NCBI GenBank assembly: GCA_903880005.1
Contig: CAIRNV010000142.1
Location: 1 to 37,917, forward strand
Length of the DNA stretch: 37,917 nucleotides
Direction of reading: 5' to 3'
From: an uncultured Verrucomicrobiota bacterium
GTDB lineage: Bacteria > Verrucomicrobiota > Verrucomicrobiia > Limisphaerales > UBA9464
Both the position numbers and the translations under genes were made by a program. Position 1 is the first letter of the stretch; each line of letters starts with the position of its first letter. A model generated the notes under the pieces. The model had not been told where the DNA came from. It worked only from the letters and a program-made list of their open reading frames with translations, and did not search any database. This document shows positions 644 through 37,769 of this stretch, piece after piece.

Positions 644-3484
644 ATGCCGTCGGAGGTGGCCCACGCATTTGCCCCGGGCCACGGGTTGGTGGCAGCCTCA
701 TCCCGCATGGGTTGGACATGGAATCTGACGCCGACGGGGCGGCTGATGCTGCTGGCGCCCAACGACGCAACGGGCAACGGGTCGGAGGCGACGGACGCGG
801 CGTGGACTTCGCTGGCACGCGCCTTCGACGAAGGCCCGGCCGCCGGAGTCGTCGCCCTCGCCATGCCGCGTCATCGGGCGTTGCCCTCCGGGCCGGCGGG
901 GCTCTTCTGGCGTTCGTTTGCGGACGCCTTCCTTGGGGCCGTGGCGCGCGCGACCCATTCCCAAGCGGCGGCAGCAGGGCCGGTTGACGCCAACGACGAA
1001 GCCAAGGACGAGGGCGGGCTGCGGTTCCCGGCCATGCAGCCAATGGGGGCGGCCGAGGCGGCGGAATGGGTGCTGCGCATGCCGGAGATGCGAGGGGCGG
1101 AGTACGTGTCGCCCGGTTGGTTCGAGACCTTTTGGCTGGACCTGATGGCGTGGGCCCGGGGCCAGTCCGCAGCGGAGGGCGGCGTGCGGGCGTGGCTGGG
1201 CCGCGTGCATCCAGGCCTGCATGCGTTGGGCCGCGTGACGTTTCACCTGGTGGAGAACAAGCGGACGCCGGCCACGCCGTTTGCCTTCCTGGCCACCTAC
1301 GTCCATCGGCTTTCGGAGGGGGCGAAGCCCGTGCACCTGCCGTTGGCGCGGGCGTTGCATGAGTACGCGGGCGCGGGCAACAAGGCGGCGTTGCAATCGT
1401 TGCTGGAACCGGTCCGGCGCGCGGCGGAGGCCAGCGACTGGGCTCGGGATCTCCTGGAGAGCAAAAGGCTGTTCCAGCCACAGGCATGGACGCCCTCGGA
1501 GGCCTACGGACTGCTCCGCGAGGTGCCCGCGCTGGAGGCGAGCGGCATCATCACGCGCATCCCCGACTGGTGGCGCCAAGGCCGCGGCCCGCGGCCCAAG
1601 GTCCAGGTGCGGGTCGGCGACGTCGCGCCCACGCCGATGCAGCATGGCGGGCTCTTGTCGTTCTCGGTGGAGGCCGCGCTCGGTGGCGAGGCCCTGACCG
1701 AGGAGGAATGGCAGCGGCTGATGTCGGGGCCGGACGGCCTGGTTTCAATCCGGGGCCAGTGGGTGGAAGTGGATCGCTCCCGCTTGTCGCAGGTCATGGA
1801 GCACTGGCGCAAGATGGCGAGCGAGGCGGGCGAGGGCGGCGTCGGTTTCCTGGAAGGCATGCGGTTGTTGTCGGGGTTCCGGCCGGGGGCGGCCGATGCC
1901 GAGGGCGCGGCGCTTGCGGCGGACCGGGATTGGGCGGAGGTGGCGGCGGGGACGACCCTGAGGGAGGCGTTGGCGGACCTTGGGGACCCGTCGCGGGCGG
2001 CGCGGTTTGACCCCAACGAGGGACTTGGGGCGCGATTGCGGCCGTATCAGGAGACGGGCGTGCGTTGGCTGTGGTTGATGCAACGCCTGGGGTTGGGGGC
2101 GTGCTTGGCGGACGACATGGGCCTGGGGAAGACGTTGCAGGTGATCGGGTTGCTGGTGCGGTTGAAGAGGGAGGAGGCGTGCGTTGGACCGTCGCTGTTG
2201 GTGGCGCCGGCGTCCCTGCTGGCGAACTGGATGGCCGAGATCAAGCGGTTCGCGCCGGGATTGAAGGCGGTGTGCCTCCATGGGGCACAGTCCGGGGGCG
2301 ATGGATGGAAGGATGGCGATGCGGCTGCCCGGCTGCTGGTGGGAGCGGACGTGGCCATCACGACGTATGGGCAGGCCGCGCGCCTGGGCTGGCTCGCAAG
2401 GCGGAAATGGAGGCTGCTGGTGCTGGATGAAGCCCAGGCCATCAAGAACCCGGGGGCGAAGCAAACCCGGTCCATCAAGGCCATCCCAGCCCAGGCGCGC
2501 ATCGCGTTGAGCGGCACCCCGGTGGAGAACCGGTTGGGTGACCTGTGGTCGTTGTTCGACTTCCTGAACCCCGGCCTGCTGGGCGCGGCGCGGGGATTTG
2601 GCGAGGCGGTGGAACGGATGCGAGCCATGGTTCCGCCGGACTACTCGCCACTGCGGCGGTTGGTGGCCCCTTATCTCCTGCGCCGACTCAAGACGGACAG
2701 GCGCATCATCGCGGACCTGCCGGACAAGACGGAGACGGAGGCCTGGTGCGTGTTGTCCAAGCGGCAGGCGGTCCTCTACCAGCAATCGGTGCGGCAATTG
2801 TCCGAGGCGCTGGAGGGCGCGATGGACGGCATCCAGAAGCGGGGGCTCGTGCTGGCCTTCCTCATGAGGTTCAAGCAGGTATGCAACCACCCGTCGCACT
2901 GGCTGGCGGACGGCCAGTTCACGCCGGAGGACAGCGGCAAGTTCCAACGGCTCGCGGAGTTGTGCGAGGAGATTGCTTCGCGCCAGGAGCGCGTCCTGGT
3001 CTTCACGCAGTTCCGGGAAATGACCGCGCCGCTCGCCGCCTTCCTGGCCGGGTTGTTTGGACGCGACGGCTTGACGTTGGACGGGACGACGCCGGTGCCC
3101 CGACGGCAGGAGATCGTGCAGGCCTTCCAGCGTGAGGACGGCCCGCCGTTCCTGGTGCTTTCGCTGAAGGCGGGCGGCACCGGCCTCACGCTCACGGCGG
3201 CAAACCATGTGATCCACTTCGACCGCTGGTGGAACCCGGCCGTGGAGAACCAAGCCACCGACCGCGCCTTTCGCATCGGGCAACGGCGGAACGTCCTGGT
3301 CCACAAGTTCGTGTGCCGCGGCACCGTGGAGGAGCGCATCCACGAGATGCTGCAAGCGAAGCGCGAGCTGGCGGACGCGGTGCTGGGGGCCGAGGGCGGC
3401 GCGGAGGCCCTGATCTCGAACATGTCCAACGACGAGTTGCTGCGATTCGTCGCCCTCGACATGCAGGCCGTAATGGGGGAGTAA
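644..3484 (+). CDS. SNF2/RapA-type DEAD/DEAH box helicase
   Basis: A 946-residue Swi2/Snf2-family DNA translocase. The first ~450 residues are a variable N-terminal region without a motif I recognise. The motor follows: motif I DDMGLGKT near residue 490, motif II DEAQ near 595, motif III SGTPVEN near 623 and the SNF2 signature DLWSLFDFLNPGLLG. The helicase C lobe has VLVFTQF near 785, GGTGLTLTAANHV near 845 and QATDRAFRIGQ near 870. These proteins use ATP to move along duplex DNA and remodel protein-DNA complexes; the bacterial substrate is usually unknown. I chose the ATG at 644; a TTG at 626 lies inside the terminator and an ATG at 707 is the next option. A SWIM zinc-finger gene starts 7 bases after the stop, so the two are almost certainly co-transcribed. 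Confidence 0.93.
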   Translation: MPSEVAHAFAPGHGLVAASSRMGWTWNLTPTGRLMLLAPNDATGNGSEATDAAWTSLARAFDEGPAAGVVALAMPRHRALPSGPAGLFWRSFADAFLGAVARATHSQAAAAGPVDANDEAKDEGGLRFPAMQPMGAAEAAEWVLRMPEMRGAEYVSPGWFETFWLDLMAWARGQSAAEGGVRAWLGRVHPGLHALGRVTFHLVENKRTPATPFAFLATYVHRLSEGAKPVHLPLARALHEYAGAGNKAALQSLLEPVRRAAEASDWARDLLESKRLFQPQAWTPSEAYGLLREVPALEASGIITRIPDWWRQGRGPRPKVQVRVGDVAPTPMQHGGLLSFSVEAALGGEALTEEEWQRLMSGPDGLVSIRGQWVEVDRSRLSQVMEHWRKMASEAGEGGVGFLEGMRLLSGFRPGAADAEGAALAADRDWAEVAAGTTLREALADLGDPSRAARFDPNEGLGARLRPYQETGVRWLWLMQRLGLGACLADDMGLGKTLQVIGLLVRLKREEACVGPSLLVAPASLLANWMAEIKRFAPGLKAVCLHGAQSGGDGWKDGDAAARLLVGADVAITTYGQAARLGWLARRKWRLLVLDEAQAIKNPGAKQTRSIKAIPAQARIALSGTPVENRLGDLWSLFDFLNPGLLGAARGFGEAVERMRAMVPPDYSPLRRLVAPYLLRRLKTDRRIIADLPDKTETEAWCVLSKRQAVLYQQSVRQLSEALEGAMDGIQKRGLVLAFLMRFKQVCNHPSHWLADGQFTPEDSGKFQRLAELCEEIASRQERVLVFTQFREMTAPLAAFLAGLFGRDGLTLDGTTPVPRRQEIVQAFQREDGPPFLVLSLKAGGTGLTLTAANHVIHFDRWWNPAVENQATDRAFRIGQRRNVLVHKFVCRGTVEERIHEMLQAKRELADAVLGAEGGAEALISNMSNDELLRFVALDMQAVMGE

Positions 3485-3490
3485 CCACGC

Positions 3491-4381
3491 ATGAGCTGGT
3501 CCCGATTCCCCCGCTACGTTCCCGTCGCCGAGCGCGTGCGCAAGGCCAAGGCCGCCGCCGCGCAGGTCGGCAAGAAGGAGGATCGCCGCGAGCCGGTCGT
3601 GGTCGAGGGGACGAAGATCGCCACGACGTTTTGGGGCAAGGGATGGTGCAAGCACCTCGAGTCGTTCAGCGATTACTCCAACCGCCTCCCGCGTGGCCGT
3701 TCCTATGCCCGAAACGGGCTGGTGATCGACCTCCGCATCACCCAGGGCCTCGTCGAGGCCCTCGTCCAAGGCTCCAGCCTCTACCGCGTCAAGGTCTCCA
3801 TCGCCCCGCTACCAAGCCAACGCTGGGCATCGTTCGTCCAGTCCTCCACCGACAAGGTCACGCAGGTCATCGACCTCCTCCAGGGCCAGCTCCCGCCGTC
3901 CCTGCTCCAGTCCGTCACAAACCCCGAGTCGGGGCTGTTCCCGCGTCCGGCCGAAATCAAGCTTTCCTGCTCGTGCCCGGACTGGGCCGACATGTGCAAG
4001 CACGTGGCGGCGACGTTGTACGGCGTGGGCGCGAGGCTGGATACGCGCCCGGAGTTGTTCTTCACCTTGCGCGGCGTGGACATGAACGACCTCGTCGCAG
4101 CCGCCGGCAAGACGGCCGCAGAAGTCCCGGTGGATGCGTCGGCCCCGGGCCTCGGGCACGAGGATTTGTCCGCGTTGTTTGGCGTCGAAATCGAATCCGG
4201 ATCCTCGGCGACGCCGGATGCCCCTGCGGTCCCAACGACGGCGCAGGCCCCCGCTGCGGCGCGCCCGAGGAAGACGATGCGCACGCCCAAGACAAAGGCT
4301 GCGACCAAGAAGCCGGTTCGGACCCGAGGTGGGAAGCCAGCCAAACGCCCTGCCACTCGCACTCGTCCCAAGCCCGGTTGA
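3491..4381 (+). CDS. SWIM zinc-finger protein, partner of the SNF2 helicase
   Basis: 296 residues. The centre carries a SWIM zinc finger, C160-x-C162-x6-C169-x-H171 (sequence SCSCPDWADMCKHVAATLYG), a fold thought to bind DNA or protein. The N-terminal part contains TFWGKGWCKHLESFSDYSNRL, typical of SWIM proteins encoded beside SNF2 helicases. The last ~80 residues are low complexity and very basic (Ala, Pro, Lys, Arg, Thr), like a histone-H1-type tail, and could bind nucleic acid non-specifically. The gene starts 7 bases behind the helicase stop. This gene pair recurs across bacteria; a joint role in chromatin remodelling or transcription is inferred, not shown. Confidence 0.9.
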   Translation: MSWSRFPRYVPVAERVRKAKAAAAQVGKKEDRREPVVVEGTKIATTFWGKGWCKHLESFSDYSNRLPRGRSYARNGLVIDLRITQGLVEALVQGSSLYRVKVSIAPLPSQRWASFVQSSTDKVTQVIDLLQGQLPPSLLQSVTNPESGLFPRPAEIKLSCSCPDWADMCKHVAATLYGVGARLDTRPELFFTLRGVDMNDLVAAAGKTAAEVPVDASAPGLGHEDLSALFGVEIESGSSATPDAPAVPTTAQAPAAARPRKTMRTPKTKAATKKPVRTRGGKPAKRPATRTRPKPG

Positions 4382-4539
4382 CGGCACACGAACCGCCTCG
4401 GCAAGCAGCCTCCCCAGGAGGGTCCAACCCGGCCCGACGCGGGCTCTCGCCGATCCAACGGCCCCCGACGAAGCAAGCCTCCACCCGGGCCAAATCCGAG
4501 CCGGAACGTCGGCCGCTTGCCATCCAGGTGGCCATGCCC

Positions 4540-5496
4540 ATGCTTCGCGCCGACATGAGCACGTGTGGCGGCGGCCAAGTCCTCGAAGCATCACCTTCCC
4601 CCGTAGCCCTCCAACTGCGGAGGAGGCTTCCGGACTGGCTCAAGGTCCCCCTCCCGGCCAGCAGCGCGTTCACGCGCACGCGGCAACTGCTCGAGGACCT
4701 GCAACTCCACACCGTCTGCGAAAGCGCCAAGTGCCCCAACCACTGGGAGTGCTGGTCCCGCGGCACCGCCACCTTCATGATCGCAGGCGATCGCTGCACA
4801 CGGGCCTGCGGCTTCTGTGCGGTGTCCACGGCAAAGCCCCTCGCCCTCGAAAACGACGAGCCGCGGCGCGTCGCCGAGGCCACCCGTCGCCTGGGACTCA
4901 AGCACGTGGTCATCACCGCCGTCGCCCGCGACGACCTGGCCGACGGCGGCGCCGACCACTTCCATCGGACCATCGGCGCCGTCCGTGAATTGAACCCCGG
5001 CATCGTGGTCGAGGTCCTCACGCCCGACTTCCTCGACCGCGACGATGCGCTGGATCGCGTCCTCGCGGCAGCGCCCGACATCTTCAACCACAACCTGGAA
5101 ACCATCCGGCGCCTGACCCCGACCGTGAGGCATCGGGCCACCTACGACCGTTCCCTCGCCGTGCTGCGCAAGGCCAAGGAAAGGGGTGGCACCGGCATGC
5201 TGACCAAGTCCGGCATGATGCTCGGGCTGGGAGAGACGCAGCCCGAGGTGATGGAGTCGCTGGGGGACCTTCGCAGGGCACGCGTGGACGTCCTGACGCT
5301 GGGCCAGTACCTGCAGCCCACGCTTCGGCACCTGCCGGTGGTCGAGTACGTCGAGCCCGCTCGCTTTGAAGCCTATCGCGAACAGGCGCTGGCCATGGGC
5401 TTCCTGCACGTCGCCTCGGGCCCGCTGGTGCGGTCCTCCTACCACGCGGACGAGGTCACCGCCGGGGCTGCCATGACGGGTTCTGCGGCGACGTGA
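4540..5496 (+). CDS. lipA: Lipoyl synthase (radical SAM)
   Basis: About 318 residues. LipA inserts two sulfurs into protein-bound octanoyl groups to make the lipoyl cofactor of 2-oxoacid dehydrogenases and of the glycine cleavage H protein. Both [4Fe-4S] motifs are intact: the auxiliary cluster C60-x4-C65-x5-C71 (CESAKCPNHWEC) and the radical-SAM cluster C86-x3-C90-x2-C93 (CTRACGFC). The C-terminal RSSY motif of the family is present near residue 298. Other family signatures are VVITAVARDDLADGGA, FNHNLET and TLGQYLQPT. Starts at 4534, 4540 and 4555 are all in frame; AGGTGG at 4526-4531 is best spaced for 4540. lipB is not in the window. GcvP, in the pathway that needs lipoylated H protein, lies about 6 kb downstream. 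Confidence 0.95.
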   Translation: MLRADMSTCGGGQVLEASPSPVALQLRRRLPDWLKVPLPASSAFTRTRQLLEDLQLHTVCESAKCPNHWECWSRGTATFMIAGDRCTRACGFCAVSTAKPLALENDEPRRVAEATRRLGLKHVVITAVARDDLADGGADHFHRTIGAVRELNPGIVVEVLTPDFLDRDDALDRVLAAAPDIFNHNLETIRRLTPTVRHRATYDRSLAVLRKAKERGGTGMLTKSGMMLGLGETQPEVMESLGDLRRARVDVLTLGQYLQPTLRHLPVVEYVEPARFEAYREQALAMGFLHVASGPLVRSSYHADEVTAGAAMTGSAAT

Positions 5497-7440: not shown

Positions 7441-8559
7441 ATGGCTGGGGAATGGCAGGATGGAACGGCGGATGGAACGGCGGATGGAGCCCAGGATCGG
7501 TCTCGGGAACGATCCCAGGACGTCGTGGGGCAGTGGCTCGACGGGATCCGGCTCGGACGAGCCAAGCATTGCGGTGGCGTCGTGCTGGTGCCGCTGCTGA
7601 ACGGAAGCAGCGGCGTCGATGCCTTGGGAAAAACCCGGGGCGGGACGGGCTACCGGACCATGCCGGAGGCCATGGCGCGGGGCGACCTGCTCGTCACGGA
7701 GGTGTCGTCCATCGGCATGCCGGGCGAGGTGCTCGCGTGGAATCGGGGCGACGTCCCCGTCTTGATGCTGGAAGGGGAGGAATGGTCCGGTGCCAGGCAG
7801 AATCGCGTCTTGATGGCGTCGGTGCTGCTCCGGCCGGGTCCACCGCGGCACCTGCCCGTGGCGTGCAGTGAACCCGGTCGGTGGAACTATCCCGGCAAGG
7901 GGGCGGGCCCTGCCATGGGGGAGTCCGGTTCATGCCTACCCTCCGGCATGAGGGCGGCGGCCCGAATGGCCCGGACCCTTTCTGGGGAATGGACCAGCGA
8001 GGCCGCAAAGGCCGTGGGAGAGGTCGTTCGGCAGGGCCTATTGGGATGGCGAAACCAGGCCGGCGGCGGCGAAACGCTATCGGACTGGCAGGACCGGGAT
8101 GTCCGACGCTGGGAGGGCTTGGAGGAGGTGTTCCGCTGGGTGCCGGGCCAGGTGGGTTGGATGGCCCACACCCATGGTGCCTGGCGATCGGTGGAACTCG
8201 TGTCACGTCCGGCAGCCTGGAGGCGGTGGCATGACAAATGGCTGCGAGGCGTCCTTTCGGGAACCGAGCCCCGAGGAGCGCACGACAGGCCCGGAGCTGG
8301 GTCACCGGACGACGCGGGATGGCGCAAGTCCGCGAGGTTGGCCTTGCTGGAGCTCACCCAAGGCAGCAGGGCCTGTTCGCCGGGGATCGACCTCGGAGAA
8401 CGGGAAGAGCGGCGGTCGGCCCAGTGGACGGGCACAGCCCTCATTCTCGACGGGGAACTGTTGCACGGGGGCTGGCAACGCATCCCATCGGGCGCACGTC
8501 ATGACCCCTGCCGGGTTCAACCGGCTCAGGGGATGGGGATGACGTCGATGCCCAGGTAA
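7441..8559 (+). CDS. ARPP-1 family domain protein
   Basis: 372 residues. The segment from about 43 to 145 fits the ARPP-1 family (named for association with ADP-ribosylglycohydrolases and phosphatases): VVLVPLLNG, YRTMPEAMARGDLLVTEVS, ENRGD-like WNRGDVPVLMLEGEEWSGA, RQNRVLMASVLL and LPVACSEPGRWNY. The C-terminal half is less conserved and Trp-rich (VFRWVPGQVGWMAH). The family's activity is unknown to me. The N-terminus contains a short in-frame tandem repeat (GTADGTADGA, from GATGGAACGGCG units), so the start may differ, although AGGAG sits 9 bases before this ATG. The 3' end overlaps serS, which runs the other way, by 34 bases. Confidence 0.72.
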   Translation: MAGEWQDGTADGTADGAQDRSRERSQDVVGQWLDGIRLGRAKHCGGVVLVPLLNGSSGVDALGKTRGGTGYRTMPEAMARGDLLVTEVSSIGMPGEVLAWNRGDVPVLMLEGEEWSGARQNRVLMASVLLRPGPPRHLPVACSEPGRWNYPGKGAGPAMGESGSCLPSGMRAAARMARTLSGEWTSEAAKAVGEVVRQGLLGWRNQAGGGETLSDWQDRDVRRWEGLEEVFRWVPGQVGWMAHTHGAWRSVELVSRPAAWRRWHDKWLRGVLSGTEPRGAHDRPGAGSPDDAGWRKSARLALLELTQGSRACSPGIDLGEREERRSAQWTGTALILDGELLHGGWQRIPSGARHDPCRVQPAQGMGMTSMPR

Positions 8560-26223: not shown

Positions 26224-27195
26224 TCAACGGTCCGTCGCATCGAACGTCGCGACGAGCAGGCGATGGTCCGAGGCCAGCCCCCAGTTGGGCGTCGTATGGA
26301 TATGGGTCTCCTCCCGACGCCATTCCCGGGCCAGGCCTCGGCTCACGAGGATGTAGTCAATCCGGGCATAGGCGTCCTCGCGGGCGAAATGGTGCGTCCA
26401 CGTGATGGTCCTCTTGGCCGGGAGCGAGGCGTCGCGTGTCAGGCCGGGCTCGGCGGGGCGGGTGTCGATCAGGGCCATGTTCCCGCGTCCAACGAGGGCC
26501 CGCAGCGCACGGCTGTCCGGCGTGTCGTTGAAGTCGCCGCACACGACCAGGTTGGCGTCGCGCTCGGCCGCGAGGATGGCATCGGCCTTCTCACGCAGCA
26601 GGATGGCCTCTTGCTCGCGCATCTCCGCCTCGGCGGCGAGCCCGACGGCGCGCTTGGACTTCAAGTGGGCGGCGACGAGGACCACGCGATGACCCGGTGC
26701 GGGCGAGAAGGAAACCTCGGCGAAGCCGCGGCTGGCCTTGATGCGACGTTCGTCCAGCAGGAACGACTCATTGGTGTGGGGCCGACGATGCAAGAACGGG
26801 AAGCGAGAGAGGACGGCGACGCAGATGTTGGTGTCATGGCCACGGACAATCTCCGCATGCGGCAGGTTCAAGCCCTGGATGGCGAGCCGACGTTGAAGGT
26901 CGGCAAGGGCCTCGGGATCCCCGATTTCCTGGAGGGCCACGACGTCCGGGCGCGCCTCGGAGAGCAGCCGCGCAACCTGGTCCCGGCTGGCCTCGGGCTT
27001 GGGTTTCCGGCCGGGCGCGGGCCGGACGAGGTAGTTTTCGACGTTGAAGGTGGCGATCCGAAAGGAGGGCTGGGACGTGCTCGTGCCGGAGACCGCGATG
27101 CTCGATGCAGGCGTGCGCAAGGCGACGAAGCCGAGGAGGAACGCGAGGATCGTGGCGTGGAACGACTTGCTGGCGAGGATGGGATGGGCGGCCAT
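26224..27195 (-). CDS. Exported endonuclease/exonuclease/phosphatase-fold protein
   Basis: 323 residues. The N-terminus (SKSFHATILAFLLGFVALRTPASS) is a signal peptide or membrane anchor. The rest is an EEP fold (DNase I / exonuclease III / sphingomyelinase group) with FRIATFNVENY, VVALQEIGDPEAL (metal-binding Glu), HLKSKRAVG, CGDFNDTPDSRAL (GDFND) and ASDHRLLVATF (catalytic SDH). All active-site motifs are intact, so it is likely an active, secreted, Mg-dependent phosphodiesterase; nuclease or lipid phosphatase cannot be told apart. The product starts with ATG at 27195, divergent from folE2. Confidence 0.88.
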   Translation of the reverse strand: MAAHPILASKSFHATILAFLLGFVALRTPASSIAVSGTSTSQPSFRIATFNVENYLVRPAPGRKPKPEASRDQVARLLSEARPDVVALQEIGDPEALADLQRRLAIQGLNLPHAEIVRGHDTNICVAVLSRFPFLHRRPHTNESFLLDERRIKASRGFAEVSFSPAPGHRVVLVAAHLKSKRAVGLAAEAEMREQEAILLREKADAILAAERDANLVVCGDFNDTPDSRALRALVGRGNMALIDTRPAEPGLTRDASLPAKRTITWTHHFAREDAYARIDYILVSRGLAREWRREETHIHTTPNWGLASDHRLLVATFDATDR

Positions 27196-27364
27196 CCGGC
27201 CAACGTCCGCGTCGAACGGTGACGTTTCAAGCAGGCGGGAACAAAGCCGTTGGTGGACCCATCGATGGGTGATACGGTCGCCTATGACGAGTCAAGCGAC
27301 GGGCGCGCGGACATTGGCTAGGGGAGCCGAGACCGGCCGCGTTACAGGGCAGGTTGGAGCCATC

Positions 27365-28144
27365 ATGAAACCGCTGAGCGACAAGCAAAACGAGCCGGAC
27401 ATCCGGGGTCTCCGCATCGACAAGGTGGGCGTCCGAGGCCTTCGCGTGCCCTTGCAAGTGCGCGACAAGGCCCACGAGGCGCCCCAAAACACCGTCGCAA
27501 CCGTGGGCCTGTTCGTGGACCTGCCCAAGGAGTTCAAGGGGACGCACATGAGCCGCTTCGTGGAGGTGCTCAACCAGCATGGCGGCGTGGTGCACGTGGA
27601 GAACATCCCGGACATGCTCCGGGCGATGCAAGCGCGCCTCAACGCCGCCAGCGCGCATGTCGAGATGGAGTTCCCGTTCTTCCTCGTGAAGAAGGCCCCC
27701 GTCTCGGGCAAGGAGGGCGTGCTGGACTACACGGTGCGATTCGACGCCGCCCTGCACGGCAGCGATCTCGACTTCGTCCTCACCGTGAAGGCCTTGGTCA
27801 CCACCTTGTGCCCCTGCTCCAAGGCCATCTCGAAATACGGCGCCCACAACCAACGCGGCGAGGTCACCGTGCAGGTTCGCACCACCCAGGTCGTCTGGAT
27901 CGAGGACTTGATCGCCTTGGTCGAGGCGTCCGCCAGCAGCGAGATGTACTCGTTGCTGAAGCGCGAGGACGAGAAGGCCGTCACCGAGCGCGCCTACGAG
28001 AACCCCGTGTTCGTCGAGGATCTCGTCCGCAACGTCGCCCTCCGCCTCAACGCACATCCCGACGTCGCGTGGTACAAGGTGGAGGCCGAGAACTACGAGA
28101 GCATCCACAACCACAACGCCTACGCATGCATCGAGAAAGGCTGA
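27365..28144 (+). CDS. folE2: GTP cyclohydrolase FolE2 (type IB)
   Basis: 259 residues. It converts GTP to 7,8-dihydroneopterin triphosphate, the first step of folate, biopterin and queuosine synthesis. The active-site cysteine region is LVTTLCPCSKAISKYGAHNQRG, with C149 and C151; the family's N-terminus IDKVGVRGLRVPL is complete. GGAG at 27356-27359 stands 5 bases before the ATG. FolE2 can use metals other than zinc, and in some bacteria is induced by zinc limitation; no Zur box was recognised here. A pterin carbinolamine dehydratase gene lies 1.2 kb further on. Confidence 0.95.
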   Translation: MKPLSDKQNEPDIRGLRIDKVGVRGLRVPLQVRDKAHEAPQNTVATVGLFVDLPKEFKGTHMSRFVEVLNQHGGVVHVENIPDMLRAMQARLNAASAHVEMEFPFFLVKKAPVSGKEGVLDYTVRFDAALHGSDLDFVLTVKALVTTLCPCSKAISKYGAHNQRGEVTVQVRTTQVVWIEDLIALVEASASSEMYSLLKREDEKAVTERAYENPVFVEDLVRNVALRLNAHPDVAWYKVEAENYESIHNHNAYACIEKG

Positions 28145-28309
28145 CGCCCTCGATGACGTTCCGCGGTCGCGGGACAACGGGCGAGAAACCCATCCCTTAC
28201 CTCGCACCTGCGGAGCCATAGCGGCCGATCCATCCGCGCCCTTCCTGCCGGGTCCCGCACGCCCGCCTTTGCGCTTCCACCCGCAAGGCCGCATGGCCAG
28301 CCTTGTGAC

Positions 28310-29239
28310 GTGAACGACGCGGCGACACGCGAGCTGCTGGACCTGCTGGTCGGCCACCTCGAGGGCCTTCGCGACGACGGGGCAAGATGGGTTGCCGCGT
28401 CGCCTGCGTTGCTGGCGGACGCCCTCGGGCCCCTTTCACGCCCACGCCCAAGCCGCGTCGAGGCCCCTCCTGCATCCCTCGCTTCATCCCGCGGGCGAGG
28501 GTCGGAGCCCGCCTCAACTTCCCACTCGGCCGCTCCAGGCGCCGGCCTGCGCGCCCCTTCCGCCATCCTGCCACCCCCACGCCCGGAGCTTGGGGGTGCG
28601 CCGCTGGACCGGGCCGGCAAGATTGCGGCGCTTGCAGCCCTGGAAGCCAAGGCCCAAGCCTGCACCCAATGCGCGGCCATCGCACGATCTCGCAAGTCGG
28701 TCGTCTTCGGCGTGGGCGACCCGGATGCCGCGTTGATGTTGATTGGCGAGGCGCCCGGCCGGGACGAGGACCAGGTCGGCGAGCCGTTCGTGGGCGCCGC
28801 CGGGCAATTGCTCTCCAAGATCCTCGTCGCCATGGGCCTTGGGCGCGAACGCGTGTACATCGCCAACGTCTTGAAGTGCCGCCCGGACACCCCGGGCGAG
28901 GCCTACGGCAATCGCAAGCCCACGGCAGACGAGATGGCGACCTGCATCCCGTTCTTGTTCGAGCAGGTGCGCATCGTGAGGCCGAGGGTCATCGTGGCCT
29001 TGGGCGGCACGGCATTGGAGGGGTTGCTCGGGCAGCAAAAACTCTCGGTCACCCGCATGCGCGGCCGATGGGTTGACTTCGCGGGCGTGCCCTTGATGCC
29101 GACCTACCACCCTTCGTACCTGCTTCGGCAGGACACGCTGGCGACCAAGCGCGAGGTGTGGGAGGACATGCTCGCCGTGATGGAGAAGCTCGGCCTTCCC
29201 ATCAGCGCCAAGCAACGCGGCTACTTCACCAAGGCCTGA
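28310..29239 (+). CDS. Type-4 uracil-DNA glycosylase (Fe-S)
   Basis: 309 residues. It removes uracil from DNA. The catalytic domain covers about 105-300: motif A GEAPGRDEDQVGEPFVG (from residue 146) and motif B HPSYLLR (H267). The four [4Fe-4S] cysteines are C118 and C121 (CTQC), C190 (NVLKCRP) and C212 (MATCIPF). The first ~100 residues are a Pro/Ser/Ala-rich linker without homology, as in many high-GC members. The start is GTG at 28310-28312; no in-frame ATG precedes the catalytic domain. It follows folE2 by 165 bases in which I see no signal. Confidence 0.93.
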   Translation: MNDAATRELLDLLVGHLEGLRDDGARWVAASPALLADALGPLSRPRPSRVEAPPASLASSRGRGSEPASTSHSAAPGAGLRAPSAILPPPRPELGGAPLDRAGKIAALAALEAKAQACTQCAAIARSRKSVVFGVGDPDAALMLIGEAPGRDEDQVGEPFVGAAGQLLSKILVAMGLGRERVYIANVLKCRPDTPGEAYGNRKPTADEMATCIPFLFEQVRIVRPRVIVALGGTALEGLLGQQKLSVTRMRGRWVDFAGVPLMPTYHPSYLLRQDTLATKREVWEDMLAVMEKLGLPISAKQRGYFTKA

Positions 29240-29294
29240 CGCGCCGACGGCAATGGTGAGGGTGGATGCCTCGGTACCGGTTCAGTGGGGAAGG

Positions 29295-29594
29295 TCACGC
29301 CCGCACCCGCCCGCGGGCAGCCAAGGCGTCGCAGCGTGCCGCAAGGACGAAGTCGCGCTCGCTGAGTCCGCCCTCGTCATGGGTCGTTAGAGACAACCGA
29401 ACTCGATTCCAACGAATGTCGATGTCGGGATGGTGGCAGGCTTCCTCGGCGGCGCGGGCGACGCGTACGACGAAGCGAACCGCAGATGGAAAGTCCGGGA
29501 ACGCAAACTCGCGCTCAATGCGGTCCTTCTTGCGCGTCCACGCAGGGACGGCGGCCATGGAATGTCGGACTTCGGCGGCGCTCAAGCTTGCCAT
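29295..29594 (-). CDS. 4a-hydroxytetrahydrobiopterin dehydratase (pterin-4a-carbinolamine dehydratase)
   Basis: 99 residues, usual for the family. It dehydrates the 4a-hydroxypterin made by aromatic amino acid hydroxylases and is found in bacteria lacking them, where it may serve Moco or folate metabolism. The signature H-H-P-[D]-I-D is present (ACHHPDIDIRWNRVRLSLTTHD), together with GGLSERDFVLA. It is convergent with the uracil-DNA glycosylase gene, 55 bases apart. Proximity to folE2 suggests pterin chemistry, but the two are on opposite strands and not co-transcribed. Confidence 0.93.
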   Translation of the reverse strand: MASLSAAEVRHSMAAVPAWTRKKDRIEREFAFPDFPSAVRFVVRVARAAEEACHHPDIDIRWNRVRLSLTTHDEGGLSERDFVLAARCDALAARGRVRA

Positions 29595-30660: not shown

Positions 30661-32886
30661 GTGGTTTTCGATTCCCCAACTCCCAGGACGCGCCTCCAAT
30701 CATCGGCGGTGGAACTGCGCGAATTTGCGGAGCGAATTGTCTTCGGAACCTCGCTGGCGGAGAAGTTGGCCGACCCCGGGCCGCTGACGGACACGCGGCC
30801 GGGCCCGGCCTTGGCGTCTCCGACGGAACCGGGGCGTCCGGAGCACCTGCGTTTCAAGGCGCGACAGGGCTCCGGCGAGGACTCGGGCTTCCCGGGAATG
30901 CGCGGGCTGGACACGGACGTGGGACGGGGCCGGGTGCTCCATTTCTTTGCCAACCATGAACTGCTGGCCGTGGAGTTGATGGCGTTGGCCTTGCTCCGGT
31001 TTCCCGACGCCCCCCCGGCGTTCCGCATGGGCTTGCTCCACACGCTTCGGGACGAGCAACGCCACACCCAGGACTACCTGCGGCGGATGCAGGCGTGCGG
31101 CGTCACGTTCGGGGAACTGCCGGTCAGCGGCCATCTGTGGCGACTGCTCGCGCCCATGGCGTCGCCCTTGGACTACGTCTCGGGCCTGCCGCTCACGTTT
31201 GAGCAAGCCAACCTCGACCACTCCCTCGCCTTCGGAAGGGCCTTCGCCGAGGCGGGCGACGGCGAGACGGCGGCGTTGCTCCGGTCCATTCACCGCGATG
31301 AAATCGCCCACGTGGCGCATGGGCTGAAGTGGTTCCGGCGCTGGAAGGACCCGGGGCTCGCCGATTGGGAGGCGTTTCGCACCCACTTGCAGTTTCCCCT
31401 CTCGCCCAGCCGCGCCAAGGGGCCGTCCGTGGACGAGGCATCCCGTCGGGCGGCCGGACTGGACGATGCGTTCATCCGGCAATTGCGCGTGCATGGCCAA
31501 TCGCGCGGGCGGGCCCCGGCGGTTCACTGGTTCAACCCCTTCGCCGAGCACGCGGTCGCCGGGCACGGGATGGAGTCCCTGCCAGCCGTGCGCCGCGACC
31601 TGGCTCGGGACCTGGACACGCTGCCGGTGGGGTTGGTCCGACAGGACGACGTGGTGCTGGTCCACGAGGAACCGTCGTTGGAGTTCCGCGAGTCACTCCG
31701 CGCGGCCGGGTTGCCGGTTCCTGAATTCGACGTCCTGGTCGGGGGCCGGATCCGGCCAGGGTCCAACCTGCTCGCGCGCGCAATCGGCGAACTGCGCCCG
31801 TGGGCGTGGGGGCCGGACGCCATGGAATGCCTCGGCGCCTTGTCAGGCCGCCTGCCCTCCGGAGCCCATCGTCCCCCCGCGTGCATGACCCCCGAACGCG
31901 CGGCCACCTTCTCGAAGCCCTGGTCGGCCGCCTTCCTGCGCCGTTGGCTGGCCGCAACGCCGGACGCCGACTGGCTCTGTACCGCAGACGAGGTCGGCGC
32001 CGTCGTCCATTCGATGGCCGAGGCGCGCGACGTCATCGCGTCCATTCGCGGGCGCGGTCATCACCGGATCGTGGCCAAGGCCGCCCTCGACCTCGCGGGC
32101 GCGGGCCAGCTTCGGTTGTGGGAAGACGAGGTTCTCCCGGCGCAATGGCGGTGGATGGAATCGCAGGTCGAGCACCCGTCTGGGTTGGTCGTCGAGCCAT
32201 GGCTGGAACGTCTCGTGGACTTCTCGGTGCAGATCGACGTGTCGGCCTGCGAAGGAGGACAGGGAAGGACGGAGATCGTCGGGTACGCCGGGATGGAGGC
32301 GGACCTTCGGGGCCAATTCGTCTCGAACTGGGCTGAGCCCGCGTTTCATCGACGGCCGCCGGCGGCCGTCGAGAGGCGCTTCACGGGCATCCCGGACATC
32401 TCGCGGCGGTTGCGCGGGCATTTCACCGAGTTGATCCAGGCGCTCGGGCAGGCGTTGCGCGAGGCGGGGCATCACGGCCCGGCGGGCATCGACGCCTTCG
32501 TGTATCGGGATGCCGCAGGCCGCGCGCGGTTGAAGCCGGTGGTGGAGGTCAATCCCCGCCATACGTTCGGACGCCTGACGCTCTCGTTGATGCGCCATGC
32601 CGCCCAAGGAACGCGCGGCGTGCTCCGGGTTGTCGGCCGACGCGACCTGCGGGCTTCGGGCGAGCCCACGTTTGCCGCGCTGGCCGCGCGGCTGCGACGG
32701 GCGAAACCGTTGGTTCGGACGAACGGCCCCGCCCCGCGGATCGAGGAGGGATGGCTTTGCTTGAACGACCCCGCGAAGGCCCAGTCCTTCCTGGCGACGT
32801 TCGAGGTTTCGCCGGCGCACGGCGGACTCGGTCGCGACACCACGAGCCTCCGGATCGAACCGCCCCCGACCCCTCCGGAATCCTGA
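30661..32886 (+). CDS. DUF455 ferritin-like domain fused to an ATP-grasp domain
   Basis: 741 residues. Residues ~15-260 form a DUF455 ferritin-like bundle (ELREFAERIVFGTSLAEKL at its start). Putative metal ligands: E100 (FANHE), E132-x2-H135 (DEQRH), E181 (FEQANLDH) and E214-x2-H217 (DEIAHV), the two ExxH pairs of a di-iron site. Residues ~330-700 look like an ATP-grasp ligase: VAKAALDLAGAG (ATP-binding Lys), VVEPWLERLVDFSVQ with E512, and VVEVNPRHTFGRL with E629 and N631 as Mg ligands. The product of the ligase is not predictable. A GTG at 30661 is the probable start; GTG at 30709 is an alternative. The stop overlaps the next gene's ATG (TGATG), giving translational coupling. Confidence 0.85.
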   Translation: MVFDSPTPRTRLQSSAVELREFAERIVFGTSLAEKLADPGPLTDTRPGPALASPTEPGRPEHLRFKARQGSGEDSGFPGMRGLDTDVGRGRVLHFFANHELLAVELMALALLRFPDAPPAFRMGLLHTLRDEQRHTQDYLRRMQACGVTFGELPVSGHLWRLLAPMASPLDYVSGLPLTFEQANLDHSLAFGRAFAEAGDGETAALLRSIHRDEIAHVAHGLKWFRRWKDPGLADWEAFRTHLQFPLSPSRAKGPSVDEASRRAAGLDDAFIRQLRVHGQSRGRAPAVHWFNPFAEHAVAGHGMESLPAVRRDLARDLDTLPVGLVRQDDVVLVHEEPSLEFRESLRAAGLPVPEFDVLVGGRIRPGSNLLARAIGELRPWAWGPDAMECLGALSGRLPSGAHRPPACMTPERAATFSKPWSAAFLRRWLAATPDADWLCTADEVGAVVHSMAEARDVIASIRGRGHHRIVAKAALDLAGAGQLRLWEDEVLPAQWRWMESQVEHPSGLVVEPWLERLVDFSVQIDVSACEGGQGRTEIVGYAGMEADLRGQFVSNWAEPAFHRRPPAAVERRFTGIPDISRRLRGHFTELIQALGQALREAGHHGPAGIDAFVYRDAAGRARLKPVVEVNPRHTFGRLTLSLMRHAAQGTRGVLRVVGRRDLRASGEPTFAALAARLRRAKPLVRTNGPAPRIEEGWLCLNDPAKAQSFLATFEVSPAHGGLGRDTTSLRIEPPPTPPES

Positions 32887-35351
32887 TGAAGGCAACGACG
32901 ACGACCCGAGCGCTGGCATGCGCGATGACCTTGCTGGGTGGCGCGGCGGCGGCGACAGGCATGGATTCAACCGAGGTGATGAAGGGGCCGGTCGTGATCT
33001 CGGAGTTCATGTCGGTCAACACGAGGACCGCCAAGGACGAGGACGGCGAGGCGTCGGATTGGATCGAGCTATGGAACCGCGGCGACAAGCCCGTGGACCT
33101 GGGCGGGTGGGGTCTTTCGGACAAGGCGAGCAAGCCGCTGCGTTGGCGATTCCCCTCCACCAACCTCCCGCCGGGCGGGCACATGATCGTGTGGGCCTCG
33201 GGCAAGGATCGAGCCATCGCCGGGCGCCCGCTGCATGCGTCGTTCAAGCTGTCCGCCGGGGGCGATCCGCTGATGCTGAGCACACCCGACGGCACGACGT
33301 CCTCGGCGTTGAAGCCCGCCTATCCGGTGCAACACGCGGATGTTTCGTTCGGGGTCATCCCGGGGCTGACGCCCAGGTGGGGTTACTGCACGCGCCCGAC
33401 GCCCGGCCAACCCAATGCCAGCGACGGCGCGCAGCCGTGGAATGCCTGGGCGGATCCCTCGCACGATCCGATGGAGCCCAAGGCGGGCGGCGTCCTGACG
33501 GTATCCGTGAGGGCCCGACCCACCGATGCAGCCCAGGGCAGGCCCGTGGTGAAGTGGCGACGCAACTTCGACCCGGAAACGGAGATCGCGCTGCGGGACG
33601 ACGGGCAAGAAGGGGATCGCACGGCCGGGGATGGCCGATGGACGGCAACGCTGCCCCTCGGGAAGACGCAGCCCGGCGACATGGTTCGATGGCGCTTCGC
33701 CATGCCGGACGACCGGGGCGGCCTGTGGCGATGGCCGTTGTCGTCGCGGGAGCCGCAGGCGGAAGGATGGCTGGGAACCGTGGTGGACCCGGGCGCGGTG
33801 ACGTCGGCCCTGCCCGTCGTCCATTGGTTCGTCGAGCCGTCCCGGTTGGCATCCATGGACTCCGACGCAGGAGCGCCGGCCTGGCTCTATCACGGAGGCG
33901 AGTTCTACGACGGCGCATGGGTGAAGGTGCGCGGCAACACGACGGCGGGCTTCGAGAAGAAGTCGCACCGGGTGGAGTTTCCTGCGGGGCATGCGTTCCA
34001 GCCGCCGCACGGGGGCGCGAGGGTCCGGGCGACGTCCTTCATGGCGGAGTGGGGAGATCCCACGTACCTGAGGCAGCACTTGTCGTTTTGGATGATGACG
34101 CGGGCGGGGGTGGCGGCGCCCTTCCATGAGCCCGTGCGGATCCAGCTCAACGGCCAGTTTCATCAACTGGCCCTGCATTCGCTTCCCTTGGGCGAGGAGG
34201 TGCTCGAACTCGCGGGCCTCGACCCCGACGGGGCCTTGTACAAGGCGGTGGGGCTCGTGCTTCCGGGCGGCGAGGGATCCGGTGGCTTCGAGAAGAAGAC
34301 GCGAAGAAGGGAGGGCAACGAGGACTACGTCGCCCTGGCCGCCGCGCTGGGGGACGACCGTCCGCTGGCGGAGCGGGCGCGGTCATGGATGGACCTGGGC
34401 GACGTCCCCGCCACGATCAACTACATCGCCGTGGCACGCCTATGCCAGGAGGACGACGACATCTGGGCGAACCTGTCCTTGTACCACGACAACGACGGGT
34501 CGGGCCGTTGGCGGCCCGTGGCCTTCGACATGAACGTGTCGTGGGGCTTCAGCTATGGCGCCGGCGAGATTCTCGCCCATCGCGATGACTTCCGGAGCCA
34601 TCCGTTCTGGGGCGCGGAGGGGATCGGATCCAACCAAGGCCACAACCGGCTGTACGACGTGGTGGTGCGGCACCCGTTCACGCGCGAGATGTTGCTGCGG
34701 CGGATGCGGACGTTGATGGACGACGCGTGGAGGCCTCCGGGTGCGGCGGGCGACGGGGGCGGATGGATCGAGCGGCACGTGAACGAGATGGCCGCGCGCA
34801 TGCGCCCGGAGGCCACGCTGGACCGGCAGCGTTGGGGGGAGCCGTGGACGGGAAGACCGGGCATCCCGGCGGCGCGTTCCTTGGACGCAGGCATCGAGGA
34901 CCTGATGCGCAAGTTCGTGGAACCGCGCCGTCGGCATTTCTTCGTCACGCATGCCGCGACAAACGCCGCGCGCCCCATCGGCGTGGGCACCACGCTCTCG
35001 GCCGGGATCCCAGACCGTCAGCCGAGCCCGGCCGATCTCCAGGTCCATGCCCGGGTGGGCGAGCCGCGCGGCGGCGGCGACGGCTGGGCGGTGGTGAGCA
35101 ACACGCATCCCTTCAGCGTGGACCTGTCCGGTTGGCGGCTGGGAGATGGGAAGGGCTTCACGCTGCCGCCGGGGTCCGTCCTGCCGGCCCATGCCGCCGG
35201 CCTCGTGGTGGAGTCGTGGGAGGGTTTCCGGCGGCGAACGACCTCGCCCAAGCCCGGGGAAGGAAGGCTGGTCTTGGGGCGTTGGAAAACGCTGCCCAGC
35301 CAGGAAGGCGCGGTCCCCTTGGCCGGAACGATTCCGTTGGGAGGGAAGTGA
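32886..35351 (+). CDS. Exported lamin-tail domain / CotH kinase-like protein
   Basis: 821 residues. A signal peptide (TTTRALACAMTLLGGAAAATG) is followed by a lamin-tail domain (~35-150; VVISEFMSVNTRTAKDEDGE, SDWIELWNRGDKPVDLGGW, LPPGGHMIVWASG). A CotH-like kinase domain covers ~300-620: WVKVRGNTTAGFEKKSHRVEF, CQEDDDIWANLSLYHDNDGS, WRPVAFDMNVSWGF (metal Asp) and HPFTREMLLRRMRTLMDDAW. A second, short lamin-tail domain ends the protein (WAVVSNTHPFSVDLSGWRLG). CotH kinases phosphorylate secreted proteins, so an extracytoplasmic kinase or scaffold is suggested. It starts in the stop codon of the DUF455 gene. The last ~10 residues (AGTIPLGGK) and the stop come from repeat copy D. Confidence 0.85.
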   Translation: MKATTTTRALACAMTLLGGAAAATGMDSTEVMKGPVVISEFMSVNTRTAKDEDGEASDWIELWNRGDKPVDLGGWGLSDKASKPLRWRFPSTNLPPGGHMIVWASGKDRAIAGRPLHASFKLSAGGDPLMLSTPDGTTSSALKPAYPVQHADVSFGVIPGLTPRWGYCTRPTPGQPNASDGAQPWNAWADPSHDPMEPKAGGVLTVSVRARPTDAAQGRPVVKWRRNFDPETEIALRDDGQEGDRTAGDGRWTATLPLGKTQPGDMVRWRFAMPDDRGGLWRWPLSSREPQAEGWLGTVVDPGAVTSALPVVHWFVEPSRLASMDSDAGAPAWLYHGGEFYDGAWVKVRGNTTAGFEKKSHRVEFPAGHAFQPPHGGARVRATSFMAEWGDPTYLRQHLSFWMMTRAGVAAPFHEPVRIQLNGQFHQLALHSLPLGEEVLELAGLDPDGALYKAVGLVLPGGEGSGGFEKKTRRREGNEDYVALAAALGDDRPLAERARSWMDLGDVPATINYIAVARLCQEDDDIWANLSLYHDNDGSGRWRPVAFDMNVSWGFSYGAGEILAHRDDFRSHPFWGAEGIGSNQGHNRLYDVVVRHPFTREMLLRRMRTLMDDAWRPPGAAGDGGGWIERHVNEMAARMRPEATLDRQRWGEPWTGRPGIPAARSLDAGIEDLMRKFVEPRRRHFFVTHAATNAARPIGVGTTLSAGIPDRQPSPADLQVHARVGEPRGGGDGWAVVSNTHPFSVDLSGWRLGDGKGFTLPPGSVLPAHAAGLVVESWEGFRRRTTSPKPGEGRLVLGRWKTLPSQEGAVPLAGTIPLGGK

Positions 35352-36558: not shown

Positions 36559-36967
36559 TTTTTGAGTGAAGGGCTCTCGGCTCGCGCGGCGCTGCCAGAG
36601 AGTGGATCCTACGGGCTCTCTTCGCGTCTTGGCGTGATTCAAAAACCCAGCCTTCCCGAGCGCTGAACCCAGGATGCATGCAGCCGGGATTCCCTCACGC
36701 GAAGACGCAAAGACGCGAAGAATGCGGTCTCATGGAGGCCCATGCCGAGGTTCATGCCCATCCGCTACGATCCCGTTCGGGCATGCCGCCTGCCGTGCTT
36801 CACGGGGTTGTGGATCCGGACTCTCTCCCGTTCTTACGCGAGGATTTGGGACTGATTGATCTGGCGGGTTGGAAAACCCGCCCCCCCATTCGGCGGGTGC
36901 CGAACGTTGCCCGATGGGGCCGGGATTGAACTTGAGGCACATGGGGAGGTCAGTAGCGTTCGACCCG
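36559..36967. other. Gene-poor tract with small repeats
   Basis: About 410 bases with no supported gene. TCTTCGCGTCTTGGCGT (36619-36635) and ACGCGAAGACGCAAAGACGC (from 36697) are inverted copies of a motif that recurs in many bacterial genomes. At 36863-36882, GGCGGGTT-GGAA-AACCCGCC forms a perfect 8-bp stem with a GNRA-type tetraloop, another small dispersed hairpin. The promoter for the mntA-hepT pair should lie in the last part. Confidence 0.65.
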
Positions 36968-37375
36968 ATGCATCATGAACCGGCAACCTGGAGGCGAGTG
37001 CTCGACCTGCTGGCTCCGTGCGAGCCGGTCGTCGTGTACCTTTTTGGTTCCCGGGCGCACGGCCGGTCCCGGCAAGACAGCGACATGGACCTCGCGGTCC
37101 TCCCGGGTCGGTCCCTCCAGCCCATGGCATGGTTCGACCTGCAAGGACGCCTGGGCGAGGAACTGGGCGTGGACGTGGACTTGGTGAACCTAGCCGAAGC
37201 CTCGGCGGTGCTCCGAAAGGAGATCCTCGCCGGTGGGAAGGTCGTATGGGCCCGCGACCTGCAGCAGAGGGCTGAGTGGGAGATGTACGCGCTCAGCGAC
37301 TACGCGCGACTCAACGAGGAACGGGCGCCGGTGCTGGCGGCCCTGGGCCAACCCCTTGCCGGCCATGCCCGATGA
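36968..37375 (+). CDS. mntA: MNT-type nucleotidyltransferase antitoxin
   Basis: 135 residues of a minimal nucleotidyltransferase. YLFGSRAHGRSRQDSDMDLAV holds the G27-S28...D39-M-D41 motif, and GVDVDLVN provides the third carboxylate, so the active site looks complete. In known systems MntA inactivates its HEPN partner by attaching AMP units to a tyrosine near the HEPN active site. ATG at 36968 starts in a good position relative to the fold; an ATG at 36941 is also in frame. The stop overlaps the start of hepT by 11 bases, the normal antitoxin-toxin arrangement. Confidence 0.88.
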   Translation: MHHEPATWRRVLDLLAPCEPVVVYLFGSRAHGRSRQDSDMDLAVLPGRSLQPMAWFDLQGRLGEELGVDVDLVNLAEASAVLRKEILAGGKVVWARDLQQRAEWEMYALSDYARLNEERAPVLAALGQPLAGHAR

Positions 37376-37769
37376 CTTGCTGCTGAACAAGGGCGTCATC
37401 ATTCGGCGCTGCATGGCGCGGGTTCGAGAAGAGTACGGGGATGACCCGGCTCGTCTTGCCAACCCGACCCGCCAAGACTCCATGGTTCTCAACGTGCAGC
37501 GGGCCTGCGAGGCGGCCATCGACCTCGCAATGCACCAGGTGGCGAGGCGTCGCCTCGGGGTGCCCCAGACGAGCCGGGAGGCGTTCGTGTTGCTGGAACG
37601 AGCCGGAATCCTGACCCCGGAGACCGGCCGACGCATGCGCGCGATGGTGGGGTTTCGCAACGTGGCCGTGCATGCGTACCAAGAGTTGCAATTGCCCATG
37701 CTCAGGTCGGTGATCGAGGAGCACCTCGCCGACTTCGAGACGTTCCTCCGGGAATTGGAACATGACTGA
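37365..37769 (+). CDS. hepT: HEPN-domain RNase toxin (HepT-like, DUF86)
   Basis: 134 residues, all-helical. The HEPN ribonuclease motif R-x4-H-x-Y is present as R98-NVAV-H103-A-Y105 (FRNVAVHAYQEL); the tyrosine is the residue modified by the antitoxin in characterised pairs. ACEAAIDLAMHQVARR in the first half is typical of the family. It overlaps mntA by 11 bases and would be translated from the same mRNA. Such toxins cleave tRNA or other RNA; the target here is unknown. Confidence 0.9.
   Translation: MPDDLLLNKGVIIRRCMARVREEYGDDPARLANPTRQDSMVLNVQRACEAAIDLAMHQVARRRLGVPQTSREAFVLLERAGILTPETGRRMRAMVGFRNVAVHAYQELQLPMLRSVIEEHLADFETFLRELEHD

Follow-up and report, generated by a model that had tools for sequence, protein, structure and literature searches.

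PGM1, the pheganomycin peptide ligase (PDB 3wvq/3wvr), couples a peptide with a nonproteinogenic amino acid, and its gene is part of an antibiotic cluster (PMC8939145). Together with BesA (8yi6), a Streptomyces peptide ligase (8ynd), and LdmS, the L-aspartate–L-methionine ligase of Staphylococcus aureus (SAOUHSC_02373; 7r8p/7r8q), it is among the described proteins closest in fold to the ligase half of the protein reported here. Unlike the latter, none of these entries carries a ferritin domain. ATP-grasp proteins of about 400 aa from Bacteroidota (L123:7992-9200 and others; found in Parabacteroides, Phocaeicola, Bacteroides, and Prevotella) are homologous over the whole ligase half, with an FNPxxE/D-type start and the same catalytic residues, but have no ferritin half on the chain.

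For the other half, the relatives are the standalone DUF455/COG2833 proteins (e.g., that of Sinorhizobium meliloti, 275 aa), which lack a ligase half and are about 30% identical to the ferritin half of the fused form. DUF455 is a widespread family that is still named a “domain of unknown function,” and our search of the DUF455/COG2833 literature found no paper assigning it one. RNR R2, R2lox, aldehyde deformylating oxygenase, MiaE, and bacterioferritin have the same ferritin-like di-iron carboxylate layout and match weakly in sequence, but none is a strong sequence relative (0.0029 being the best E value of a profile against the PDB) and none is fused to a ligase in the entries compared. Two observations on DUF455 proteins outside the fusion may be recorded here. 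The standalone genes of Sinorhizobium and Sphingomonas (L125:5300-6612 and L173:2201-3477), from two alphaproteobacterial orders, each lie directly after a peroxiredoxin gene. Proteins of about 450 to 515 aa at loci L107-L116, mostly from family f28, match DUF455 weakly (E values of 1e-12 to 1e-14) and only in their C-terminal half, and are possibly tandems of two ferritin-like domains.

The fused gene lies in the window, i.e., the whole 37,917-nucleotide stretch analyzed here, from an uncultured Verrucomicrobiota bacterium, and is present as a single copy in its genome (Table 1). The first-pass annotation had placed a DUF455 domain and an ATP-grasp ligase on one chain at this position, and the reading frame, the Pfam search, and the structure model all agree with it. 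The true start is probably not at 30661 but at GTG 30709 (residue 17), which would give a protein of 725 aa, since the region conserved among relatives opens at residue 17 to 18 of the 741-residue frame and many of them have ATG at the position of this GTG. The ATG of the downstream CotH kinase/lamin-tail gene overlaps the stop codon of the fused gene (TGATG, 32884-32888) and begins on its last base; the two genes adjoin only here and in the closest relative.

Table 1 Features of the fused gene and its downstream neighbor (window positions; residue numbers refer to the 741-codon frame)
Feature	Position	Strand	Remark
Fused ORF, whole frame	30661..32886	+	741 codons
DUF455 (PF04305), residues 53-272	30817..31476	+	Pfam, E 2.7e-46, 158.6 bits vs cut-off 34.3
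Ferritin-like four-helix bundle, residues 84-235	30910..31365	+	helices 86-113, 119-145, 169-197, 201-228
Glu100, helix A, predicted di-iron ligand	30958..30960	+	invariant, 43 fused + 8 standalone DUF455
Glu132-x-x-His135, helix B, predicted di-iron ligands	31054..31065	+	invariant, 43 fused + 8 standalone DUF455
Tyr139, 4 residues past helix-B His (ExxHxxxY)	31075..31077	+	invariant among fused sequences; standalone DUF455 has V/I/L/M
Glu181, helix C, predicted di-iron ligand	31201..31203	+	invariant, 43 fused + 8 standalone DUF455
Glu214-x-x-His217, helix D, predicted di-iron ligands	31300..31311	+	invariant, 43 fused + 8 standalone DUF455
ATP-grasp half resembling PGM1/BesA/LdmS, residues 286-741, with FNPxxE at its start	31516..32883	+	model fold match; Bacteroidota standalone homologues
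Lys473, ATP-grasp lysine, strand 470-474	32077..32079	+	invariant
Glu512-Pro-Trp514, hinge Glu of ATP site	32194..32202	+	Glu invariant in 34 sequences
Asp520 of R517-x-x-D520-F motif	32218..32220	+	Asp invariant
Asp611 of G606-x-x-G-x-D motif	32491..32493	+	invariant
Glu629-x-Asn631-x-Arg633, expected Mg2+/phosphate site	32545..32559	+	invariant
CotH kinase + lamin-tail domain gene	32886-35351	+	directly downstream of fused gene

The N-terminal half, modeled alone with 43 fused sequences in the alignment (pLDDT 88.5, pTM 0.88), forms a four-helix bundle that superposes on the Dps-like PA4880 (Z 16.3 over 141 residues, 1.9 A), on bacterioferritins (Z 15 to 16), and on rubrerythrin (Z 14.8), values to be read against the Z of 13 to 14 that unrelated helical bundles can score. 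Foldseek E values were also weak (best, 0.039), so the ferritin-like assignment rests on the fold together with the ligands. In the model, an E/ExxH/E/ExxH ligand set sits at matching heights in the middle of all four helices, with spacings (E100-E132, 32; E181-E214, 33) close to the corresponding 33 and 33 of Escherichia coli bacterioferritin. The two ExxH pairs previously pointed out in the sequence, E132/H135 and E214/H217, thus take their place beside E100 and E181 in this set. D186, G221, and W224, invariant in standalone DUF455 proteins along with the six ligands, are present here as well. A profile of the fused-family ferritin half found no significant kin among PDB sequences, and no MiaE structure was among the fold matches listed for this half, which decides nothing. 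Conservation and modeling together give good support to a ferritin-like bundle with a complete predicted di-metal site; iron, whose binding we infer, is the most likely metal.

The fused form differs from standalone DUF455 in the residues beside the ligands. N98, H99, Q133, Y139, Q182, and N184 were present in all fused sequences sampled, whereas the standalone proteins mostly have H, I, A, V/I/L/M, A, and G at these positions. As judged from the alignment, the surroundings of the metal ligands have been respecialized in the fused form (H99, Q133, Y139, Q182, and N184).

The C-terminal half is also well supported, by residue conservation and by the full-length model (pLDDT 89.7, pTM 0.87), as an ATP-grasp ligase with a predicted intact ATP site. 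Pfam gave no profile above the cut-off for this half of the window protein, and the matches obtained were weak (DUF3182, PreAtp-grasp, and ATP-grasp_3); PreAtp-grasp (PF18604) matched 7 of 34 members (best E value, 6.9e-5), the window's own sequence not among them. Foldseek recognized the ATP-grasp fold with an E value of 2e-12. In the fold comparison, the whole half superposed on PGM1 (3wvr; Z 27.0 over 371 residues, 3.1 A), the Streptomyces peptide ligase (Z 24.9), and BesA (Z 23.8) over 358 to 376 residues at 13 to 17% sequence identity, followed by LdmS (Z 22.4), with PurK in the next tier (Z 18.7 or below). This ranking makes amino acid/peptide ligases the closest class. LdmS was also the only PDB sequence reached by a profile of the ligase half (E 0.015). 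The NCBIfam LdmS model (NF047900) matched a Bacteroidota homologue at 8.4e-8 and 31.4 bits, below its equivalog cut-off of 475 bits, and did not match the window protein at an E value of 1. Over 34 sequences, including standalone Bacteroidota proteins, the F-N-P motif, K473, E512, D520, G606, D611, E629, N631, R633, and G637 are invariant, so that the Lys, Glu, and E-x-N residues named in the first-pass annotation are all accounted for. The structural check proposed there likewise returned a ferritin-like bundle and an ATP-grasp site that is not degenerate.

A search of 84,980 species genomes identified 356 stretches encoding relatives, a number that excludes chance. The best 80 of the 356 are essentially all Verrucomicrobiota metagenome-assembled genomes; the few bearing other names were taken as mislabeled bins, and the single such row included in the tree branches among the Verrucomicrobiota ones. 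In an evenly drawn sample of 289 Verrucomicrobiota genomes, strong DUF455 matches were found in 14 and the ligase half in the same 14, every pair forming one frame of 648 to 757 codons. These genomes include a family from another class, indicating that the fusion is old. At the order level, the first half was matched in 91 of 245 genomes and the second in 95. Recurrence in the 14 phylum genomes and in about 90 of the 245 order genomes rules out an assembly artifact or chance fusion. On plasmids, fused copies were absent and the halves occurred only separately; no virus-borne copies were found in IMG/VR contigs with the patterns used. Our literature search, outside of which many subscription papers lay, found no paper describing a DUF455/ATP-grasp fusion. 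Both halves fall within known superfamilies, but in the particular family described here no function is assigned to either.

The same fusion thus recurs across the phylum, but its neighbors are not conserved. Among 81 loci, some of them cut by contig ends, the largest shared neighbor cluster, excluding frames overlapping the fused gene, had 17 members with a prepilin-type N terminus, and all others had 11 or fewer; at the 14 deep-family loci, no neighbor was common to more than three. No neighboring frame of at least 80 to 90 aa was widely shared, which bears on graspetide (RiPP) precursor and other RiPP genes, and neither a linked electron donor gene nor a conserved target gene was found in the neighborhood. 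A biosynthetic cluster was rejected, the neighbors occurring in at most 17 of the 81 loci and being generic. The fused gene stands alone, whereas the genes for the PGM1-type ligases compared sit in antibiotic clusters. The lack of a conserved neighborhood suggests that one gene suffices, and that the substrates are likely common metabolites.

Several other genes in the window merit mention in their own right. A 755-aa frame (3229-5496, +) has a C-terminal radical SAM part with a match to a lipoyl-synthase-like N-terminal domain, and the product of 7441-8559 (+) matches PF20208, the uncharacterized ARPP-1 family, which takes its name from an association with ARG and rhodanese-phosphatase proteins. 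Within 27044-29594, a FolE2-type GTP cyclohydrolase gene (27044-28144, +) lies near one for a pterin-4a-carbinolamine dehydratase (29295-29594, −). At 36869-37769 (+), a nucleotidyltransferase (Polbeta) gene precedes a HepT-like one, and the two probably form a HepT/MNT toxin-antitoxin pair.

We propose, with about even confidence, that the protein is a bifunctional enzyme in which a carboxylate-amine ligase is joined to an O2-dependent di-iron step acting on the substrate or product of the ligase. The ATP-grasp half would work as PGM1, BesA, and LdmS do: with ATP, it would turn the carboxylate group on one amino acid (or on a short peptide) into an acyl phosphate, and attack by another amino acid's amine would then form an amide bond. 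Of the amide- or ester-forming step suggested earlier, the amide part is favored, the nearest characterized folds being amide forming, and the ester part found no specific support. The ferritin-like half would bind two metal ions and use O2 to oxidize the ligase substrate or product by hydroxylation or desaturation. Since no partner gene is conserved, the final product would probably be a simple oxidized metabolite that resembles a dipeptide and is built from common amino acids. We infer both the coupling of the oxygen chemistry to the ligase's own substrate and the substrates themselves; the linkage on one chain across most of the phylum, the constraint on both halves (dN/dS of about 0.1 to 0.3, indicating purifying selection, with synonymous sites partly saturated), and the specialized flanks of the iron site favor such a coupling.

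The proposal is weakened by the loss of the ferritin core at least twice with the ligase intact. The failure to find a linked electron donor gene, or a paper assigning DUF455 a function, also counts against it. In six members of the order (loci L158-L163), a ligase frame of 451 to 532 codons lies within the contig and the core is absent; candidates G500, G521, G547, and G421 were left out because their frames end at contig edges. These are natural ferritin-less forms of the fused protein. Some retain its first 20 to 40 residues, and that of L160 starts MELRDLAEPVLFATTLDDKL and then runs straight into the FNP motif. No DUF455 above the cut-off was found elsewhere in the six genomes. In a tree of the ligase half built with a quick method, the ferritin-less members occupy two positions among the fused ones, and two changes are required by branches with good support. 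The sequences therefore indicate at least two losses inside the family, the fused state being the older in these cases. The ferritin-less ligases keep their catalytic residues, with only G609 varying, and are still under purifying selection (dN/dS of about 0.24 to 0.31, with synonymous sites partly saturated), indicating that the ligase is useful without the di-iron core and that the oxidation is dispensable for it. Absence of oxygen respiration as the cause of core loss was not supported outright, as a COX1-family gene was present in all 21 genomes tested. The COX1 matches were weaker in four of the six ferritin-less genomes (6.9e-26 to 1.3e-78) than in the fused ones, all 15 of which reached 1e-119 or better; this is only a hint of lower-oxygen lives, the genomes not being independent.

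These losses speak for the main rival account, somewhat unlikely in our estimation, in which the enzyme proper is the ligase and its product a plain amide. The di-iron domain would then be an accessory, either clearing O2 or peroxide from around a substrate sensitive to oxygen or sensing O2 or iron and gating the ligase. The ligase-only homologues of the anaerobes Bacteroides, Parabacteroides, and Prevotella are consistent with such a role, as are the two alphaproteobacterial DUF455 genes that follow a peroxiredoxin gene. However, the ferritin half is the slower evolving in two of three pairs compared (81% identity, against 63% for the ligase half, in the closest pair), and the flanks of its site are specialized beyond the needs of a generic scavenger.

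The absence of a surrounding biosynthetic gene cluster would also suit an ATP-grasp half whose target is a protein, to which it would add an amino acid or peptide tag much as RimK or the proposed CDC123 clade does, with the di-iron half acting on the same target. Protein tagging by ATP-grasp enzymes has been established or proposed in other cases (PMC4431377). We nevertheless regard this as improbable here, as the nearest structures among the matches listed are small-molecule/peptide ligases and a conserved target gene is absent nearby. That the ferritin-like half merely stores or oxidizes iron in the role of a ferritin, Dps, or encapsulated ferritin, its fusion being incidental, would agree with the bacterioferritin and Dps folds closest to it and with weak EncFtn-like Pfam matches in 35 of 43 members (best, 3.9e-4), but is most improbable given that, wherever the phylum sample has a strong DUF455 match, it shares one frame with the ligase, and that invariant polar residues specific to the fused form lie by the ligands.

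Returning to the coupled ligase-oxidase, a bolder version of it centers on Tyr139. In a HMMER alignment (E 0.047, not significant) this residue pairs with a tyrosine in 2ani, an R2 chain that we take to be a mutant with the radical tyrosine restored. E. coli bacterioferritin has a Tyr at the matching position too, which makes the alignment a lead rather than a test. If the di-iron site made or passed a tyrosyl radical by way of Tyr139, at the R2 radical-tyrosine position, a ligase-held amino acid or dipeptide could be oxidized, giving an undescribed oxidized peptide metabolite that is made by one gene and shared by much of the phylum; we consider this a long shot.

Overall, the fusion ties DUF455 to ligase kin of the enzymes that make dipeptides and antibiotic peptides, and so provides a testable substrate class for DUF455. 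The natural forms with and without the di-iron core constitute a ready-made comparison. If the coupled ligase and oxidation steps are indeed what the protein performs, a single gene would make an oxidized amide, at once a compact biocatalyst and the source of a so far unknown metabolite in a widespread phylum.
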